Origin: Calditrichota bacterium
Lineage (GTDB): Bacteria; Electryoneota; B3-LCP
NCBI GenBank assembly: GCA_020051775.1
Contig: JAGVQJ010000036.1
Span: 1-40,788, forward strand
DNA length: 40,788 bases
Reading direction: 5' to 3'
In this document: positions 8,144 to 22,933 of the stretch, one piece after another
Numbering within the stretch: the stretch's first letter is position 1
How the letters are laid out: each line of letters opens with the position of its first letter
Position numbers and translations under genes: made by a program
The notes under the pieces: generated by a model
Seen by the model: the letters and a program-made list of their open reading frames with translations, nothing else
Told to the model about the DNA's origin: nothing
The model's database searches: none

Positions 8144-9328
8144 TTATATAATGGCCAGAACTTTTCCTACTTTTTCAAACGCTGCCAACGCTCGATCCAG
8201 ATCTTCGACCTCGTGCGCTGCTGATATCTGCACACGAATGCGCGCCTGGCCTTTGGGCACAACGGGATAGGAGAAAGCGATGACATAGATACCTTCCGCC
8301 AATAGGCGCGTAGCCATGTCCACCGCTGGTTTGGCTTCATGCAACATGATCGGTACAATGGGATGAATCCCCGGTTTTATGGCAAATCCTCGTTTTTTCA
8401 TCCCTTCCCTGAAGTACTGGGTGTTTCTGCTCAGTTTGTCTCTAAGGTCGGTGGATTCCTCGAGCAGATCTAACACCGAAAAGGTAGCGCCCACAATGAC
8501 CGGAGCCAGCGAATTTGAAAACAGATAGGGGCGGCTGCGTTGGCGTAGAGTATCAATCATCTCCTGGCGACCGGCGGTGGCTCCTCCCAATGCGCCTCCC
8601 AGCGCCTTTCCGAAAGTGGTGGTGACCAGATCCACCCGGCCTTCAACTCCGCAGTGTTCGGGTGTGCCCCGACCGGTAGCGCCAACGAACCCGGTGGCAT
8701 GTGAATCGTCCACCATGACCAGAGCATCATACTTTTCGGCCAGGTCGCAGATGCTTTTAAGATCGGCGATGTCGCCGTCCATGGAAAAGACGCCGTCGGT
8801 GACGATCATGCGGAAGATGCAAGATGATGACTCCTTGAGCTTTGCCTCCAAATCCTCCATATCGCCATGCTTGAATATCTGGCGACCGGCTTTGGACAGC
8901 CGCACGCCGTCAATGATTGAAGCATGATTTAGGGCATCGGTCAAGATGCAGCAATCCTCGGTCATGAAGGGTTCGAATACTCCGCCATTGGCGTCGAAAC
9001 AGGCAGCGTAGAGAATGGCATCATCCAGACGTAAAAAATTGGCCAACTTCCGCTCCAACTCTTTATGAATTTCCTGGGTGCCGCAGATGAACCGCACCGA
9101 AGAAGTCCCATACCCCCATTGATCCAGCGCTTGATGAGCCGCAGCGATCACCACCGGATGCGATGACAGACCCAGGTAATTGTTGGCGCAGAAGTTCAAC
9201 AATTCGCGCCCGTTGACTTTGATCCGTGCGCTTTGCGGGGATTGTATGATGCGTTCTTCTTTGAACAGTCCTGTAGACCGGAAATGGGCCAGCTCAGCGG
9301 AAAGTAGCGCTTTGAGTTTCGTGTACAT
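8144..9328 (-). CDS. alpha-oxoamine synthase, glycine C-acetyltransferase-like (paralogue 1)
   Basis: A PLP enzyme of the Kbl/BioF family (394 residues) that condenses an acyl-CoA with an amino acid, most likely acetyl-CoA with glycine to give 2-amino-3-ketobutyrate. Visible family landmarks are [16 protein letters not shown], the [14 protein letters not shown] segment, [10 protein letters not shown] (PLP-stacking and binding residues), the [13 protein letters not shown] lysine loop, and [17 protein letters not shown] at the C-terminus. It is clearly paralogous to the product of 17236-18483, but ends [10 protein letters not shown] without the KYGILGLGKK tail of that protein. No threonine dehydrogenase gene is adjacent, so the pathway is not fixed by context; BioF-like or other oxoamine synthase activity remains possible. 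Confidence 0.88.
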
Positions 9329-10572: not shown

Positions 10573-10980
10573 TCATCCGGAAAGGGTAACCGTCTTCGGC
10601 CATTTCTGAATGATCTGGAGGATTTCACGCACGTAGGCGCATTCACAATCCACGGAACAGGGGCGCATATCGTCCTTATAAAGGCAATATTTCGGGCAGT
10701 CTTCAGTACCGGTAGCGCGTTTTGAGGCAATCGGTCCATGGTATAAATTCTGAAAATGCCTGACTTGCATAGATAATGTGGTTCCACAGCTATGATTGAA
10801 TAAAAAAAGTCCAAATTTCAGGTCAATGAAGTTGGTTTGGTATCCAATAACGGAAATCTCAGGATCGGTCAGCAAGGATTTCTGGTCAGGCCAGGAAGAA
10901 TTGCACACAGCGCAATTTAAAAAGCCCTCAGCGAGTTTGGCATTTATCGCCACCGATTGTACCGGTTCGATCGCTTCCAT
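10573..10980 (-). CDS. cysteine-rich conserved protein of unknown function (paralogue A)
   Basis: A 135-residue cytoplasmic-looking protein with no signal peptide or membrane segment. Eight cysteines are shared in position with the neighbour at 11196-11570: a CxxC near residue 23 (CAVC), one in FNHSCGTT, two in CPKYCLY, and a cluster RPCSVDCECAYVRE near the C-terminus. Such spacing suggests bound metal (zinc or iron-sulphur), which is inference. Other shared blocks are DPEISVIGYQTNF and FGLFLFNHSC. ATG 10980 has an excellent AAGGAG six bases upstream; the frame continues 12 codons further but without a start of equal quality. I do not recognise a named family. The 177 bases upstream are AT-rich and probably hold its promoter. 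Confidence 0.75.
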   Translation of the reverse strand: MEAIEPVQSVAINAKLAEGFLNCAVCNSSWPDQKSLLTDPEISVIGYQTNFIDLKFGLFLFNHSCGTTLSMQVRHFQNLYHGPIASKRATGTEDCPKYCLYKDDMRPCSVDCECAYVREILQIIQKWPKTVTLSG

Positions 10981-11195
10981 GAAGCTCCTTATGTTCCAGC
11001 TAATCCTCTGAGTCAACCAAATTCATTAAATTACTTTTCCTTAAAAATACCACTAAATTGTTAATCCAGCAGCCTTAGTAATTTAACCGATTTTAATAAG
11101 GAAAGCAAATAATTACATGAAACTCATAACCACAAAGATAAAAATCCCCCCTCTACCGGCAGGATTTGCACCTTTAGAAACGGATTATTTGGGGG

Positions 11196-11570
11196 TTAGC
11201 TGTGCTTCGGCCAATCCCTTAGAATCGGAATAATCTCCCTCACCCAGGCGCATTCGCATTCCAAGGGACATGGGCGTACCTCGTCCTCATAAAGGCAATA
11301 TCCAGGACAGTCAGCCGCGGCCGTCAAAGCCTCGTTAAAAATCGGGCCGGAGTAAAGATCCTGTACTTCCTGAACCTTTATGGCGACCGTTGTTTTACAG
11401 GTGTGGTTGAAAAGAAACAGTCCCGCCTCTGGACGCTTGAAGTTGGTTTGGTATCCTACATAATCGAGTAACGGATCACTCAAAAATGCTGTTCGGTCAG
11501 TCCAAATTTCGCCGCACATCGGGCATTGCTTGAATACCTTAAGGAAAACTTCAGGCATAGTTTCCATCAT
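11196..11570 (-). CDS. cysteine-rich conserved protein of unknown function (paralogue B)
   Basis: This protein of about 124 residues is a diverged copy of the product of 10573-10980, on the same strand and directly upstream of it. All eight cysteine positions are kept: CPMC, FNHTCKTT, CPGYCLY and RPCPLECECAWVRE. The shared frame includes FLSDPLLDYVGYQTNFK and AGLFLFNHTC, and both end in a W-P-K motif. Two adjacent ATG codons (11570, 11567) follow GGGAG; the second has the better spacing. The family is unknown to me. Tandem duplication with full cysteine conservation argues that the cysteines are functional, perhaps as a metal site. Confidence 0.75.
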   Translation of the reverse strand: MMETMPEVFLKVFKQCPMCGEIWTDRTAFLSDPLLDYVGYQTNFKRPEAGLFLFNHTCKTTVAIKVQEVQDLYSGPIFNEALTAAADCPGYCLYEDEVRPCPLECECAWVREIIPILRDWPKHS

Positions 11571-11680
11571 GTCTCCCAATATGGTTATTAAGAATTACGG
11601 TAAAATATCACGGGATGGGAGGGTATTTCAGGATTATTTGAATGGGAAAGCGATAGAAGGTTGTGGATGAATTGGATTTG

Positions 11681-13706: not shown

Positions 13707-13851
13707 AGGTCCTCCATTTGATAGGATCGATATATTCTAAGATTTTACGCTAGGGCGGTCAAAGTCGTTGGCCTGTCTGTGAAATTGTACTCATGTAGAG
13801 GGGGGAGGTTCCGAGGGGGGAACTTAAAAGTGATCGCATATTAAAGGATAA

Positions 13852-13875
13852 ACCCGGCCTGCAAGCAGGCCGGGT
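13852..13875. terminator. terminator-like hairpin downstream of the TIR-like cassette
   Basis: acccggcctg-caag-caggccgggt, a perfect 10-bp stem with a 4-base loop, about 70 bases past the stop of the leftward TIR-like gene. The minus-strand flank is T-rich (ttatccttt). Confidence 0.65.
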
Positions 13876-13946
13876 CACGACACAGCCCAGCTTAGCGTAA
13901 TACTTGATGCACAAAAATCTTTTTAAGCATATCGTTGTTTCTTGAT

Positions 13947-15275
13947 TTAGTCTCTTCTCGCATCTTTTGGTGAGTTTACTCTTTTTTTATCATCTCGAGT
14001 GGTTTTATGGTTTATGATAAAATCAAGTTTGGTTAGTTTCGCGAAAATATTTTCAGACCTGGTTGTTGCTTTATTAGGAGTAAATAATTCTCTTCTAAGC
14101 CGATTAATCTCTTCGGTCAACAAAAAATTGTGGTGAGCAATAGAGTTCATCATTAAATTAGATAAATTTCTCACGGAACGTAAATTATAACACAGCTCTT
14201 CATAGTGAGCCGCTTCATCCTCAATGGTGAGATCCAGGTGATTTGAAAATTCCTCACAAATTGAGTGATGAACGGCACAATCTGTCAAAAATGCCACAAC
14301 ATTTGATTTGGCCAGATTCCCAACATTTGGGTTTTCATCGAATAATTTGAGAATCCTGTGATATTCATCCTTCAAATCCTCCGTCACTTTGTAAATGTTA
14401 TGAATGGTCGGAATAGTCACTGCAATTTGTCCGCCTTTTTGGTCTCCAAATGGAGTTAAAAAGCGGTCGCATAGGTGGGTGATTTTTGTCAGGATGTCCA
14501 ATATTTCAAACCCCCGGTTGAGTTTAATATTCCATCGCAGAAAATCGCAAACCAATCCAATGCTGGCCTTTCCCAGGCAACTGCTTCGAAAATAGTAGGA
14601 GAGGCATACTCTCTCGTATGACCAAAACGGAAAATACGTACCTGGCATGGCATATCTCACCGGATCTGGAAGCTGCTTAATTTTGTATCTTTTATTGTTG
14701 TTAGCCCGTTCTACAGTAGAGAGAATCGGTTTGGTCACCAGACTATCCGTGGCATCATCGGTCGAAGCGATTTCACAACCTGCTATTTTAAATGCTCCGA
14801 TGAGATCACCTCTGGTTGTGTAATTCACGGTGGAAATTTCATTCAATTGGATATATTGCATAAATTTAAATGAATCAGACATATGGATAAGGTTAAAGTA
14901 TCGAATATCTCCCACTTGCAATACGATTACTTGTTTGGTAAATGATTCACTCCGGACCATCAACATTCCCAACAATAAGATGATCTCAGGGTTTGGCTGA
15001 AAACCGTTATTATTTTCACCACCAATTGAAAAATCAAGAGTGGCCCTGTCCTCTGGCGTCAGCAGCACCACCACGGCTTGATGATTCTTGGAAATCGAGT
15101 TCGCAAAGTCTTCCTGCGTACTGCTGGACTTGATTGCATCCAGGGAAGATAATTCCGTACAAAAAAGGCCGAGTGAGTTCAGAAATTGGATCACGCGATC
15201 GGCACAACCGCGATCTGAACCCGAAACGAGAAGTACACTTTTCTTAAGCGGTGGTTTTCCTTTTCTTCCAGCCAT
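13947..15275 (-). CDS. TIR-like domain protein lacking the catalytic Glu, with an unknown helical C-terminal domain
   Basis: The 442-residue protein has an N-terminal nucleotide-binding TIR-like domain (residues about 12-165): SVLLVSGSDRGCADRVIQFL, QAVVVLLTPEDRATLDF, and the helix that in the family reads NVIFExG but here reads PEIILLLGM, so the usual Glu is Leu101. The linker (about 165-195) also matches the upstream gene product. Residues about 195-425 are mostly predicted helix with conserved-looking aromatic and cysteine residues (for example FWSYERVCLSYYFRS and HHNFLLTEEINRLRREL) and match nothing I know. GGAG precedes the ATG by five bases. The gene is 37 bases after the first TIR-like gene, so they form an operon. 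It is markedly AT-rich next to its neighbours, suggesting transfer. A defence or signalling role is inference. Confidence 0.8.
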   Translation of the reverse strand: MAGRKGKPPLKKSVLLVSGSDRGCADRVIQFLNSLGLFCTELSSLDAIKSSSTQEDFANSISKNHQAVVVLLTPEDRATLDFSIGGENNNGFQPNPEIILLLGMLMVRSESFTKQVIVLQVGDIRYFNLIHMSDSFKFMQYIQLNEISTVNYTTRGDLIGAFKIAGCEIASTDDATDSLVTKPILSTVERANNNKRYKIKQLPDPVRYAMPGTYFPFWSYERVCLSYYFRSSCLGKASIGLVCDFLRWNIKLNRGFEILDILTKITHLCDRFLTPFGDQKGGQIAVTIPTIHNIYKVTEDLKDEYHRILKLFDENPNVGNLAKSNVVAFLTDCAVHHSICEEFSNHLDLTIEDEAAHYEELCYNLRSVRNLSNLMMNSIAHHNFLLTEEINRLRRELFTPNKATTRSENIFAKLTKLDFIINHKTTRDDKKRVNSPKDARRD

Positions 15276-15312
15276 TTTAACTCCAGAATTGTGTACCCGA
15301 ACAGGTTAGAAG

Positions 15313-15882
15313 TTATATGGTAACAACCTTACTATTTCTCGACGAACGAGATTCGATCGTTGACCGGATTAGAGGTGATTTCAGGTAATCGTAATTGGAA
15401 AGCACATAATCGGGTATGACACAGCCGCATAGTTTTAAATTTGTTACAATTCGCTTCCTATTCTGAACATCAGTGGATTTCAGTTCGTTTATCTCAATCT
15501 TATGGATTCCCGTTAAATCCGAAAAAGGTCTAACAATTCCGACTTGTAGAAGTATCAGCCTCTTGTTAAATCCCTGCCATGCCATACCGGTTTCGAAGAT
15601 GACATTGGGTCTAGATATGTAACCTTCCTCACTTCCCAAACGAGAATCGAGTTTAGAGAACTCATCAGGTGTAAACAGCGCAATTATACCTTGAGCTGTT
15701 TTCATTGCCGTTTTAATAATTTGTATAATTGACGGCGGTGTCCCCAGCTCCTCACGACATTTAACTTGTAAGTCAGAGAATAACGGGCAATCAAGTCGCA
15801 AGCTCTTGACGAATAGTCTTACGGCTTCGGAGCACTCTGTGTCTTTCCCGGATATCAAAAAGACAGTTCTTGATTTTTCCAT
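15313..15882 (-). CDS. TIR-like nucleotide-binding domain protein (catalytic Glu kept)
   Basis: A 189-residue protein that is almost entirely the TIR-like domain of the kind found in CBASS Cap12 and prokaryotic Argonaute-associated effectors, where it cleaves NAD. The pattern is RTVFLISGKDTECSEAVRLF, GIIALFTPDEFSKLD, then RPNVIFETGMAWQGF with the expected catalytic Glu (about residue 97), and RLILLQVG and IHKIEIN. Its last 40 residues match the linker of the downstream 442-residue protein (KSPLIRSTIE against TKPILSTVE), so the two are full-length paralogues up to that point. ATG 15882 is preferred to the TTG one codon upstream; only a weak AG-rich sequence serves as ribosome site. It is AT-rich and first in a two-gene operon. 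Confidence 0.82.
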   Translation of the reverse strand: MEKSRTVFLISGKDTECSEAVRLFVKSLRLDCPLFSDLQVKCREELGTPPSIIQIIKTAMKTAQGIIALFTPDEFSKLDSRLGSEEGYISRPNVIFETGMAWQGFNKRLILLQVGIVRPFSDLTGIHKIEINELKSTDVQNRKRIVTNLKLCGCVIPDYVLSNYDYLKSPLIRSTIESRSSRNSKVVTI

Positions 15883-15885
15883 CAA

Positions 15886-16117
15886 TCATCTTTCTACTTG
15901 GTATTCGTTAGATCGCCGAGGGAATCCACAGCTCAGTTGTTATGAAAGTAAAACTTTAATTTTATTTAATCAACACAACACAGCCCCAATATACAACAAC
16001 GAAATCTCCTTGACAAGTCTTTTTTAATATTTTTGGATGCTTCAGAAACTCTCTAGGTCATTTCGCAACCGTAAAAAAATGCGTGCTATATTTATTCAAG
16101 TCGTTAGAGATACAAAA
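15886..16117. other. AT-rich leader region upstream of the TIR-like cassette
   Basis: No gene is visible in these roughly 230 bases. They must hold the promoter of the leftward TIR-like operon, but I find no convincing -35/-10 pair. A plus-strand TTGACA at 16010 has no matching -10 at 16-18 bases. A ccacagctcag word at 15928 resembles part of the palindrome at 3996-4014. Confidence 0.4.
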
Positions 16118-16133
16118 GCCCGATTTCTCGGGC
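16118..16133 (-). terminator. small terminator downstream of the TylF-type gene and kbl scrap
   Basis: gcccga-tttc-tcgggc, a 6-bp stem. On the minus strand it is followed by tttt, which fits an intrinsic terminator for leftward transcription. Confidence 0.7.
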
Positions 16134-16187
16134 ATCTGCTTGTTACATGGTTACTTGTATACTTGTATACGTGGTGACGTGTACACG

Positions 16188-16275
16188 TTCTCACATCCCA
16201 TACATCTCAATAATCACTTTCTTCCCCAACCCTAGGATGCCATACTTCGCGCCGACCTTCTTCCGGGCCGTCAGG
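16188..16275 (-). pseudogene. duplicated 3' scrap of the kbl gene
   Basis: About 88 bases match the 3' end of the Kbl gene at 17233-17320, roughly four bases in five by eye, with the same reading direction. In frame it still encodes KKVGAKYGILGLGKK and a terminal IEMYGM, against KKVGAKYGILGLGKK and IEKYGM in the intact gene. The upstream part of the enzyme is absent; the frame continues only into the antisense of the TylF-type gene end. The scrap and the intact copy bracket the methyltransferase gene. A quasi-tandem acttgtat word (16150-16185) adjoins its end. Confidence 0.8.
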
Positions 16276-17193: not shown

Positions 17194-17235
17194 GTTCACG
17201 CTTAGGACTAATGGCTAAGAGCTAATGGCCTTTTC

Positions 17236-18483
17236 TCACATCCCATACTTCTCGATGATCTGCTTCTTTCCCAACCCCAGAATTCCGTACTTCGCGCCGA
17301 CCTTTTTGAAGGCTGCAAGGCCTTTGTCCAGGTGCTTCTGGTCGTGAGCGGCGGAAAGCTGTGTGCGAATTCGCGCCTGGCCTTTGGGCACCACCGGGAA
17401 GAAGAATCCTACCACGTAGATCCCTTCGGCGAACATATCGCGGGCCACGTCTTGAGCTAACTTGGCGTTGTAGAGCATCACCGGCACAATGGGGCTATCG
17501 CCCTCTTTTATGTCCAGGCCGATCTCCTTAAGACCCTTGCGCCAGTAGTTCGTGTTCCATTCCAGCTTGTCGCGGCGCTCGGTGGTCTTGGAAATCAGGT
17601 CCAGCACCTTCAGTGCGCCCGATACGATAACTGGCGCTACCGTATTGCTAAACAGGTAGGGACGCGCCTTCTGACGGCACATTTCTACCAATTCCTTGCG
17701 GCCTGATACGCACCCGCCGGAAGCTCCACCCAGAGCCTTGCCCAGCGTCGTGGTGATGATGTCTATTTTGCCAACCACGCCGCCGTACTCGTGAGTGCCA
17801 CGTCCCATCTTGCCCATGAAACCGGAAGCATGCGAATCATCCAGGAAGACCATAGCGTTGTACTTTTCCGCCAGCGCCACGATCTGATCCATGTGCGCCA
17901 CATCGCCGTCCATGGAGAAGACGCCATCGGTGATAATCAGGCGGTAGCGTTTGTCCTGGTGCTCCTGCAGCTTCTCTTCCAGGTGCGCCATGTCAGAATG
18001 CTTGTAAGTGTCGGTCATGGCCTTGCACAGGCGCATGCCGTCCACGATGGAAGCGTGCACCAGACGATCGGAGATCATCACGTCCTGGTCGGTCAGCACG
18101 GCTTCGAAGACTCCAGCGTTGGCGTCCATGCAACTGGGAAAGAGCAGCGTATCTTCCGTCCCTAAAAACTCGGTCAGCTTTTTCTCCAATTCCCGATGGA
18201 TGTCCTGCGTCCCGCAGATGAAGCGCACCGAGGACATGCCGTAGCCTCGGGTGTTCAACCCTTCGTGCGCCGCCTGCACGACATCCGGGTGGCTGGACAG
18301 CCCCAAGTAATTGTTGGCGCACATGTTGATGACGTGCTTGACCGGCGACCCGGCCGGGAACTCGACCTCGATCTCCGCTCCCTGTGGAGCGTGGATATAG
18401 CGCTCTTCTTTGAACAGACCAGCCTCTTTTATGCCGCCCAGTTCAGTTTGATAGGCAGCGCGGGCTTTATCACTGTATGCCAT
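17236..18483 (-). CDS. alpha-oxoamine synthase, glycine C-acetyltransferase-like (paralogue 2, ACP-linked)
   Basis: A 415-residue PLP enzyme of the Kbl/BioF/serine-palmitoyltransferase family. It shows [63 protein letters not shown] (PLP lysine) and [21 protein letters not shown]. It is longer than paralogue 1 because of an ending KKVGAKYGILGLGKK plus a short tail. By sequence it looks like glycine C-acetyltransferase. By context it lies downstream of an acyl carrier protein, an acetyl-CoA-synthetase-like ligase and acpS, all on the same strand, so an acyl-ACP substrate or a lipid-type product should be considered. A strong terminator (17160-17193) ends the unit. The 171 bases separating it from the ACP gene are filled with three palindromes. 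Confidence 0.88.
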   Translation of the reverse strand: MAYSDKARAAYQTELGGIKEAGLFKEERYIHAPQGAEIEVEFPAGSPVKHVINMCANNYLGLSSHPDVVQAAHEGLNTRGYGMSSVRFICGTQDIHRELEKKLTEFLGTEDTLLFPSCMDANAGVFEAVLTDQDVMISDRLVHASIVDGMRLCKAMTDTYKHSDMAHLEEKLQEHQDKRYRLIITDGVFSMDGDVAHMDQIVALAEKYNAMVFLDDSHASGFMGKMGRGTHEYGGVVGKIDIITTTLGKALGGASGGCVSGRKELVEMCRQKARPYLFSNTVAPVIVSGALKVLDLISKTTERRDKLEWNTNYWRKGLKEIGLDIKEGDSPIVPVMLYNAKLAQDVARDMFAEGIYVVGFFFPVVPKGQARIRTQLSAAHDQKHLDKGLAAFKKVGAKYGILGLGKKQIIEKYGM

Positions 18484-21390: not shown

Positions 21391-22341
21391 ATGAATAGAT
21401 TAGATGATTTGTTAACATATTCCTATCCAAATGTAACTAAAGAAGTTGCATGTAGTGGAGAGTTATTTCTTATTTTTAATACAAATGCCTTTAAATGGCT
21501 CGAATCTGCAGAAAGTAATTCAATCCACGCAGTTGTAACAGATCCGCCTTACGGTCTATTGGAATACACTCCAACCGAACTCGAGAAATTAAAGAATGGG
21601 CGTGGGGGGGTGTGGCGAATTCCACCTTCTTTCGATGGCTGTTTAAGAAGTCCATTACCAAGATTTACTGTCCTCGGTTTAACTGAGAAGAAGGCATTAT
21701 ATGAGTTCTTTACCGCGTTGGCGAAACATTTAATGCATGTTCTTGTCCCTGGAGCCCATGCTTTTATTGCCACAAATCCCCTTGTTTCCTATTTGGTTTA
21801 TAATCCGTTCATTGAAGCCGGTTTTGAAAAACGAGGCGAAATAATACGTGTGGTACAAACTTTAAGAGGTGGTGATAGACCTAAAAATGCTCATCTCGAA
21901 TTCTCTGATGTCACGGTGATACCTCGATCATGTTGGGAGCCTTGGGGATTATTCAGGAAACCGTGTGAAGGTCGTGTCCAAGATAACCTACGAAAGTGGG
22001 GGACTGGCGGATTAAAACGCATCTCCCCTAAAGAACCATTTAAAGATTTGATCATTTCATCACCTGCAAGAGGACTTGAAAGGGAAATAGCACCGCATCC
22101 ATCGCTGAAACCGCAGCATTTTATGCGCCAAATTGTGAAGGCATCATTACCCCTTGGCACCGGTACTATTCTTGATCCCTTTATGGGATCAGGTTCAACA
22201 ATTGCGGCTGCCTGTTTTAACGGGTATAAAAGCGTAGGATTAGAAATAAATCATGAATATTACAAACTCGCTAAAAAAGCAATCCCAAGGCTGGCAAATA
22301 TAAAATTAAATGGAGATGGACGGAATGGTTCAACAAAATGA
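21391..22341 (+). CDS. DNA methyltransferase, amino-methylating, beta-type motif order
   Basis: A 316-residue site-specific DNA methyltransferase. The catalytic DPPYG (near residue 51, in HAVVTDPPYGLLEYTP) comes before the SAM-binding LDPFMGSGSTIAAA (near residue 270) and is followed by GLEINHEYYKLAKKA. This is the beta-class order of N6-adenine or N4-cytosine enzymes. The gene is AT-rich unlike the acpS cassette on its left, suggesting transfer. Its 3' end overlaps the next gene, whose product is a likely cognate endonuclease, giving a compact restriction-modification pair. ATG 21391 has no strong Shine-Dalgarno; a TTGACA at 21339 lacks a good partner -10. The recognition sequence is unknown. 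Confidence 0.9.
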   Translation: MNRLDDLLTYSYPNVTKEVACSGELFLIFNTNAFKWLESAESNSIHAVVTDPPYGLLEYTPTELEKLKNGRGGVWRIPPSFDGCLRSPLPRFTVLGLTEKKALYEFFTALAKHLMHVLVPGAHAFIATNPLVSYLVYNPFIEAGFEKRGEIIRVVQTLRGGDRPKNAHLEFSDVTVIPRSCWEPWGLFRKPCEGRVQDNLRKWGTGGLKRISPKEPFKDLIISSPARGLEREIAPHPSLKPQHFMRQIVKASLPLGTGTILDPFMGSGSTIAAACFNGYKSVGLEINHEYYKLAKKAIPRLANIKLNGDGRNGSTK

Positions 22342-22933
22342 CTTTAATCCGCAGGTGAAATTGCCTCCCGGTTTGACAATCACGGCGATTAAAAAGACTA
22401 TTGAATATATGGAACGTGAATTGGCCGATCTTGTGGATATATATTTTGAACAAGCAAATGTATTTAGTGCAATCGTCGGTATTTTTGCTACCAAAGCACT
22501 TTCCACTCAAAGCATTTATGAAAAATGCAGGCATCTAGATATTGCACAGCAGAGATTCCCAGATCTCCACAAACGAGGATCTGGTGATAATCCATCACCT
22601 ATTGAATGCCTTGAATGCAAGGCGAGTAAACGAGCTTGGGCAGTTCAATCTCATTATGATCATTCGGGGTGGTACATAGTCTGGAGGTATTTAGTTGATC
22701 AGACTTGCTCCTTTGAACCAGACAGACCTGTGATCGTTTGGAGGGTAGATGTAATATTCATTGAGAAAGATGATTGGAAATATGAAGGGAGCAGCGCTGG
22801 TTCATCTGGCGGGGGGCGAACACATACTTTTGGACTAAAAAATCCTGCTCAGAAGTTGAAAGATAAAGCAGTATATAAAAGAATTGACGTAACTATTAGT
22901 GATGGAAAGGCAATTGCTAAGAATGGATCGTAG
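22325..22933 (+). CDS. probable type II restriction endonuclease
   Basis: A protein of about 202 residues whose gene overlaps the 3' end of the methyltransferase gene. The middle carries a candidate PD-(D/E)xK site: a D followed by PSPIECLECKASKRAWAVQ, with the E-C-K as the ExK pair. It continues with SHYDHSGWYIVWRYLVDQ and an alternate-hydrophobic VIVWRVDVIFIEKDDW strand. An internal Gly/Ser-rich loop (SSAGSSGGGR) follows. I cannot name the family with certainty; the call rests on the motif, size and coupling to a methyltransferase. ATG 22325 has GGAG nine bases upstream; ATG 22310 and 22316 are alternatives. It is AT-rich like its partner. Confidence 0.6.
   Translation: MVQQNDFNPQVKLPPGLTITAIKKTIEYMERELADLVDIYFEQANVFSAIVGIFATKALSTQSIYEKCRHLDIAQQRFPDLHKRGSGDNPSPIECLECKASKRAWAVQSHYDHSGWYIVWRYLVDQTCSFEPDRPVIVWRVDVIFIEKDDWKYEGSSAGSSGGGRTHTFGLKNPAQKLKDKAVYKRIDVTISDGKAIAKNGS

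Follow-up and report, generated by a model that had tools for sequence, protein, structure and literature searches.

A linked pair of TIR genes with a kept and a lost NADase site in a Calditrichota bacterium

Why would a bacterium carry, directly beside a gene for a TIR protein with an intact NADase site, a second gene whose TIR has lost that site? This question is raised by two neighbouring genes in a window of 40,788 nucleotides (the whole stretch of DNA analysed here; positions 1 to 40,788 of contig JAGVQJ010000036.1, assembly GCA_020051775.1). We address it by examining the gene layout, the residues of the two active sites and the predicted folds, and by comparing the pair with related TIRs in other genomes.

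The two genes and their surroundings

The locus comprises the following features.

13947–15275, minus strand: long gene, encoding a 442-residue protein in an open 442-aa frame (PF10137, E 9.3e-7)
15313–15885, minus strand: short gene, encoding a 190-residue TIR-only protein, with its start probably at the ATG of 15882 (PF10137, E 1.6e-15)
13750–16250, no strand: A+T-rich island of ~2.5 kb, defined by composition (GC about 0.37–0.44), with the two TIR genes as its sole content

The short gene lies upstream of the long gene on the same strand, separated from it by 37 bp, which is an operon-like layout. A ribosome-binding site (GGAG) stands 5 nt before the ATG of the long gene, and the long frame remained open in none of 2000 shuffles (0/2000). 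The genes that flank the island have a GC content of about 0.48–0.58, and in G013, the nearest relative examined, the region downstream of the kbl orthologue has no counterpart of the island. The genes nearest to the pair encode an OmpA-like protein, a TylF methyltransferase and kbl; no CD-NTase or nucleotide cyclase gene was found among them, and a CBASS or Pycsar reading of the pair was dropped because it has no cyclase gene nearby.

Several other features of the window were recorded. The 3' end of kbl is present as an 88-nt copy of 80% identity (16188–16275 versus 17233–17320), located 1045 bp past the intact kbl end with the TylF-type methyltransferase gene in between, an arrangement suggestive of a scar left by insertion or recombination. 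Paralogues of the kbl type (2-amino-3-ketobutyrate CoA ligase) flank the TIR pair at 8144–9328 and 17236–18483. Tandem paralogous cysteine-rich proteins of 147 and 127 aa, for which a Pfam search gave no match, are encoded at 10573–11016 and 11196–11579 (both on the minus strand). A second A+T-rich patch holds, at 21391–22933, a type II DNA methyltransferase gene (PADLOC MTase_II, E 3e-117) and, overlapping and following it, the gene for a 207-aa protein; this candidate restriction enzyme had no match in Pfam or PADLOC.

Both TIR proteins scored above the curated cut-off of PF10137 (24.7 bits), the model of the CAP12/Pycsar TIR family, with 57.6 bits for the short protein and 29.3 bits for the long one. 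The two are 27% identical over nearly the full length of the short protein (BLASTP, E 2e-18), and the long protein, as far as this comparison tells, amounts to a divergent version of the short one with about 245 further residues joined on. In the phylogeny the window TIRs are sisters to each other with an SH-aLRT value of 93–94, which is below the usual threshold, lies between long branches and is not decisive; both proteins also have a common 4-residue insertion and alignable tails. Because the window TIRs branch together and have this insertion and these tails in common, the pair probably arose by a duplication after which one copy lost its site. The PADLOC candidate model PDC-S35 also matches both TIRs (6.5e-11 for the short and 8.6e-4 for the long protein), with the match confined to the TIR part; to our knowledge, this candidate has no proven function. 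Single-protein scans found no relatives of the long protein in GTDB contigs or viral contigs and none of the short protein in viral contigs, and tblastn of the window TIR proteins in phages gave no match. The phylum's 38 other genomes contained no match to the long protein, and neither a full-length homologue of it nor an orthologous pair was found in the collections or Calditrichota genomes searched.

The NADase triad is kept in the short protein and lost in the long one

In SfSTING, R78 and N80 coordinate the phosphodiester and the ribose, and E84 is the catalytic residue (PMC9402430). Columns were identified by profile alignment of the window proteins to SfSTING (7UN8), with residue roles following that study, and the following features were located.

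15583–15612, minus strand: motif RPNVIFETGM of the short protein, with Arg92, Asn94 and the catalytic Glu98 (codon 15592–15594), from the alignment and the SfSTING profile
14964–14993, minus strand: motif NPEIILLLGM of the long protein (residues 95–104), with L101 encoded by TTG at 14973–14975, from the alignment and the profile
14859–14900, minus strand: DD-loop region of the long protein (residues 126–139) with an insertion of ~6 aa, from an alignment in which gap placement is ambiguous
14751–15245, minus strand: TIR fold of the long protein (residues 11–175), from AF2 and Foldseek
13950–14690, minus strand: C-terminal 247 aa of the long protein (residues 196–442), predicted by AF2 to be all-helical, a candidate sensor or assembly region

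The short protein has R92, N94, E98 and D123 in the columns of SfSTING R78, N80, E84 and D110; the triad and the DD-loop Asp are kept. Its AF2 model has a pLDDT of 88 and finds its best fold match in SfSTING 7UN8 (E 6e-5), and from sequence and model together the short protein is predicted to be an active NADase.

In the long protein, the columns of R78, N80 and E84 are occupied by N95, E97 and L101, and the R-N-E triad is absent. L101 stands opposite Glu98 in the BLASTP, MAFFT and HMM alignments, in a motif that aligns without gaps and is anchored by the invariant Gly, so that the replacement of the catalytic Glu by Leu101, claimed in the preliminary description, is confirmed. When ten plasmid-borne relatives are aligned with the pair, the Glu column holds Leu in the long protein and Glu in all the other eleven. 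At the position of SfSTING W33, assigned by eye, the short protein has F36 and the long protein L42. Glu97, which had been named as an example of an acidic residue that might occupy the catalytic position instead, lies one helical turn ahead of that position, in the AF2 helix alphaC that begins at P96; at the level of sequence it falls in the N80 column and is therefore ruled out as a replacement for the catalytic Glu. The column of SfSTING D110, the Asp of FSDxxG, contains L129 in the long protein (the Asp being lost) or, under another gap placement, D134 (the Asp being displaced).

The AF2 model of the long TIR has pLDDT values of mostly 75–93, and its strands and helices alternate as in TIR; its Foldseek matches are weak, with MilB first (best E 4.6e-3) and TIR-STING next. 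The proposal of an active and an inactive partner of the same fold is thus borne out by sequence and modelling, the short protein combining an intact motif with a good TIR model and the long protein keeping the TIR fold around a wrecked motif. The helices of the C-terminal region are of low AF2 confidence. This region gave no Pfam hit above the cut-off, no PDB sequence match and no useful fold match, and no relatives of it were found in the collections, in 40 Calditrichota genomes or among the open reading frames of the gathered loci.

Glu-less TIRs beside Glu-bearing TIRs in other genomes

The 210 aligned family TIRs, a set that includes a GTDB scan by a pattern that itself contains the Glu, comprise 194 with this residue, and the 111 TIRs from motif-free profile searches comprise 95; the latter proportion (86%) is to be read as rough because some regions were fetched for looking like pairs or weak hits. 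Among the 16 Glu-less TIRs fetched, the Arg has also been lost in 15 and the Asn in 13, and the D110 column is still acidic in eight, all of the CATRA type, in keeping with what a partner that completes a mate's site would need.

The Glu-less TIRs are concentrated next to Glu-bearing ones, or in fusions with them, and this is seen in at least three architectures unrelated to one another: the window pair, a CATRA pseudo-TIR with a TIR-only protein or a CATRA-TIR, and PfkB-TIR doublets in which Glu is changed to Gln. An Actinoplanes locus (L094) encodes a CATRA-N protein with the C-terminal TIR motif DHDVLLRAGL, followed by a 201-aa TIR-only protein with RPNVLFEAGM, and an Amorphoplanes locus (L077) encodes a CATRA protein with APAVLVTAGM that is divergent from a Glu-bearing CATRA-TIR. 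Four loci of the Micromonosporaceae group (L156–L159) have the same CATRA pairing, the Glu position being taken by Arg or hit by a deletion of two residues; across all these CATRA-N/C pseudo-TIRs, the Glu position is Arg, Thr or deleted. We found no published description of a CATRA pseudo-TIR paired with a Glu-bearing TIR. At L167 and L168, tandem PfkB-TIR genes encode one Gln-bearing (DQNIVHQAGI) and one Glu-bearing (RQNVVHEVGL) protein, and at L169 a Gln-bearing and a Glu-bearing PfkB-TIR are fused.

Another TIR lies within ~6 kb of 10 of the 16 Glu-less TIRs versus about 16 of the 95 Glu-bearing ones by a hand count (Fisher 3e-4, which is indicative only, related loci being counted as if independent). 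The remaining six Glu-less TIRs, all of the CATRA type, are without a nearby TIR, and some of these genomes carry a TIR-only gene elsewhere. In the tandem TIR pairs of L048, L080, L165, L171 and L172 both Glu residues are intact, so a tandem arrangement does not always mean a live/dead pair. The trees call for four changes to account for the loss of Glu; strongly supported branches force four losses in the first tree and only two in the second, from which long branches and motif columns were left out. No description of inactive, pseudo- or degenerate bacterial TIR partners was found in the open-licence literature.

A possible division of labour and its alternatives

We regard it as slightly better than an even bet that the pair is a two-gene NAD-targeting conflict module, in which the dead TIR is a sensor/adaptor subunit controlling the short TIR NADase. 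The short TIR-only protein would be the effector, cleaving NAD+ once its TIRs are brought together. The long protein, with its catalytically dead TIR and C-terminal helical region, would contact the short protein TIR-to-TIR, and would either keep the short protein switched off pending a trigger or nucleate an active assembly upon sensing. In this division of labour, NAD+ cleavage would fall to the short protein, and the long protein, as a sensor/adaptor subunit and not a second enzyme, would link this cleavage to an input via its C-terminal region. In view of the family membership and of the type II DNA methyltransferase gene 5–6 kb away, the function of the module is probably anti-phage.

When SfSTING packs into filaments, the active site of a TIR is completed by D110 from the TIR opposite, and the NADase is thereby switched on (PMC9402430). 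Given that TIR NADases become active through assembly, a catalytically dead copy still able to pack could nucleate, complete or cap a live one, and the loss or displacement of the mate-completing Asp in the long protein leans slightly towards restraint or pure scaffolding. The occurrence elsewhere of independent pairs that combine a Glu-less with a Glu-bearing TIR makes the role of regulator or scaffold first suggested for the long copy more likely, and the mixed filament suggested along with it is a guess from the family precedent of SfSTING filaments. Several findings count against the sensor/adaptor reading: no orthologous pair was found in the genomes searched, the C-terminal model is of low confidence, the mate-completing Asp is lost or displaced, and the six CATRA-type Glu-less TIRs stand without a nearby partner.

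The long protein might instead be an antitoxin-like inhibitor, the dead TIR of which caps or poisons the assembly of short TIRs in uninfected cells until it is lost or displaced on infection, without acting as a specific sensor. Dead copies of oligomerising enzymes are natural dominant-negatives, such roles of inactive enzymes have been proposed in related conflict systems (PMC7159879), and a long protein that had really lost the mate-donated Asp would be a poor activator. However, the 247-aa extra region exceeds what an inhibitor needs, and other dead partners bear conflict-system domains such as CATRA; we therefore consider a pure inhibitor rather unlikely.

That the long gene is a meaningless duplicate decaying under relaxed selection seems to us quite improbable: although its protein lies on the longest branch of its tree and no orthologue was found in the collections and genomes searched, the 442-codon frame is intact, with a ribosome-binding site and operon-like spacing, the TIR fold is kept in the model, and independent live/dead pairs occur elsewhere. 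We give very little credence to the idea that its TIR-like fold has adopted another chemistry, of the N-glycosidase or deoxyribosyltransferase-like kind, via E97 or another acidic residue. The weak best fold match of the model is indeed MilB, a CMP N-glycosidase, and E97 lies on the same helix as the catalytic position, but all four pocket columns (W33, R78, N80 and E84) are changed and the alphaC motif is nearly all Ile, Leu and Met.

Known systems resemble the proposed sensor/adaptor pair in different respects. Among CAP12/Pycsar TIRs, the short protein keeps the R, N, E and DD-loop Asp of its best fold match SfSTING; no STING or cyclic-nucleotide-binding domain was found in the window proteins, and, compared with SfSTING, the window TIR is split between two proteins, one live and consisting of the TIR only, the other a dead TIR joined to a region of no known family. 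In plants, ~90% of TIRs keep the Glu, and the Glu-less ones are apparently mostly sensor-type TNLs that are genomically paired with a signalling-competent one, the TIR of RRS1, paired with RPS4, being the explicit example (PMC7282519). The window pair is like RRS1/RPS4 in that the genes are linked, one TIR bears the Glu and the other lacks it, and the Glu-less protein has an extra domain, which in RRS1 is a sensor domain; it differs in belonging to another TIR family and in that no NB-LRR was found. The CATRA proteins (PF20269/PF20270) are likewise Glu-less TIRs fused to a domain and situated beside a Glu-bearing TIR, whereas no CATRA domain was found in the window pair, in which the Glu was lost independently on the tree, to L as opposed to R, T or a deletion. 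In SPARTA (TIR-APAZ/short Ago), the TIR NADase is activated by assembly, which fixes the BB-loop, the active state being taken up by only some of the TIRs (PMC10474274); its inactive units are conformational and not mutated, and no Ago or APAZ was found adjoining the window pair. Human FAM118A/B was dropped as a live/dead sirtuin analogue, because both partners were mutated there for catalytic-dead controls, which makes it no clear example of a pseudoenzyme.

We tentatively suggest, at somewhat less than even likelihood, that sensor/executor TIR pairs have arisen repeatedly in bacteria as a prokaryotic counterpart of the paired TNLs of plants, with a linked TIR NADase governed by a Glu-less TIR fused to a sensing domain. 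The window pair would then represent a new architecture, composed of a TIR-only protein and a pseudo-TIR with an uncharacterised helical region. If this is true, the loss of Glu in one of two linked TIRs would be a recurrent way of splitting sensing from NAD+ cleavage, in bacteria as in plants, and such loci would provide small two-gene systems for studying how a live TIR is controlled by a dead one.
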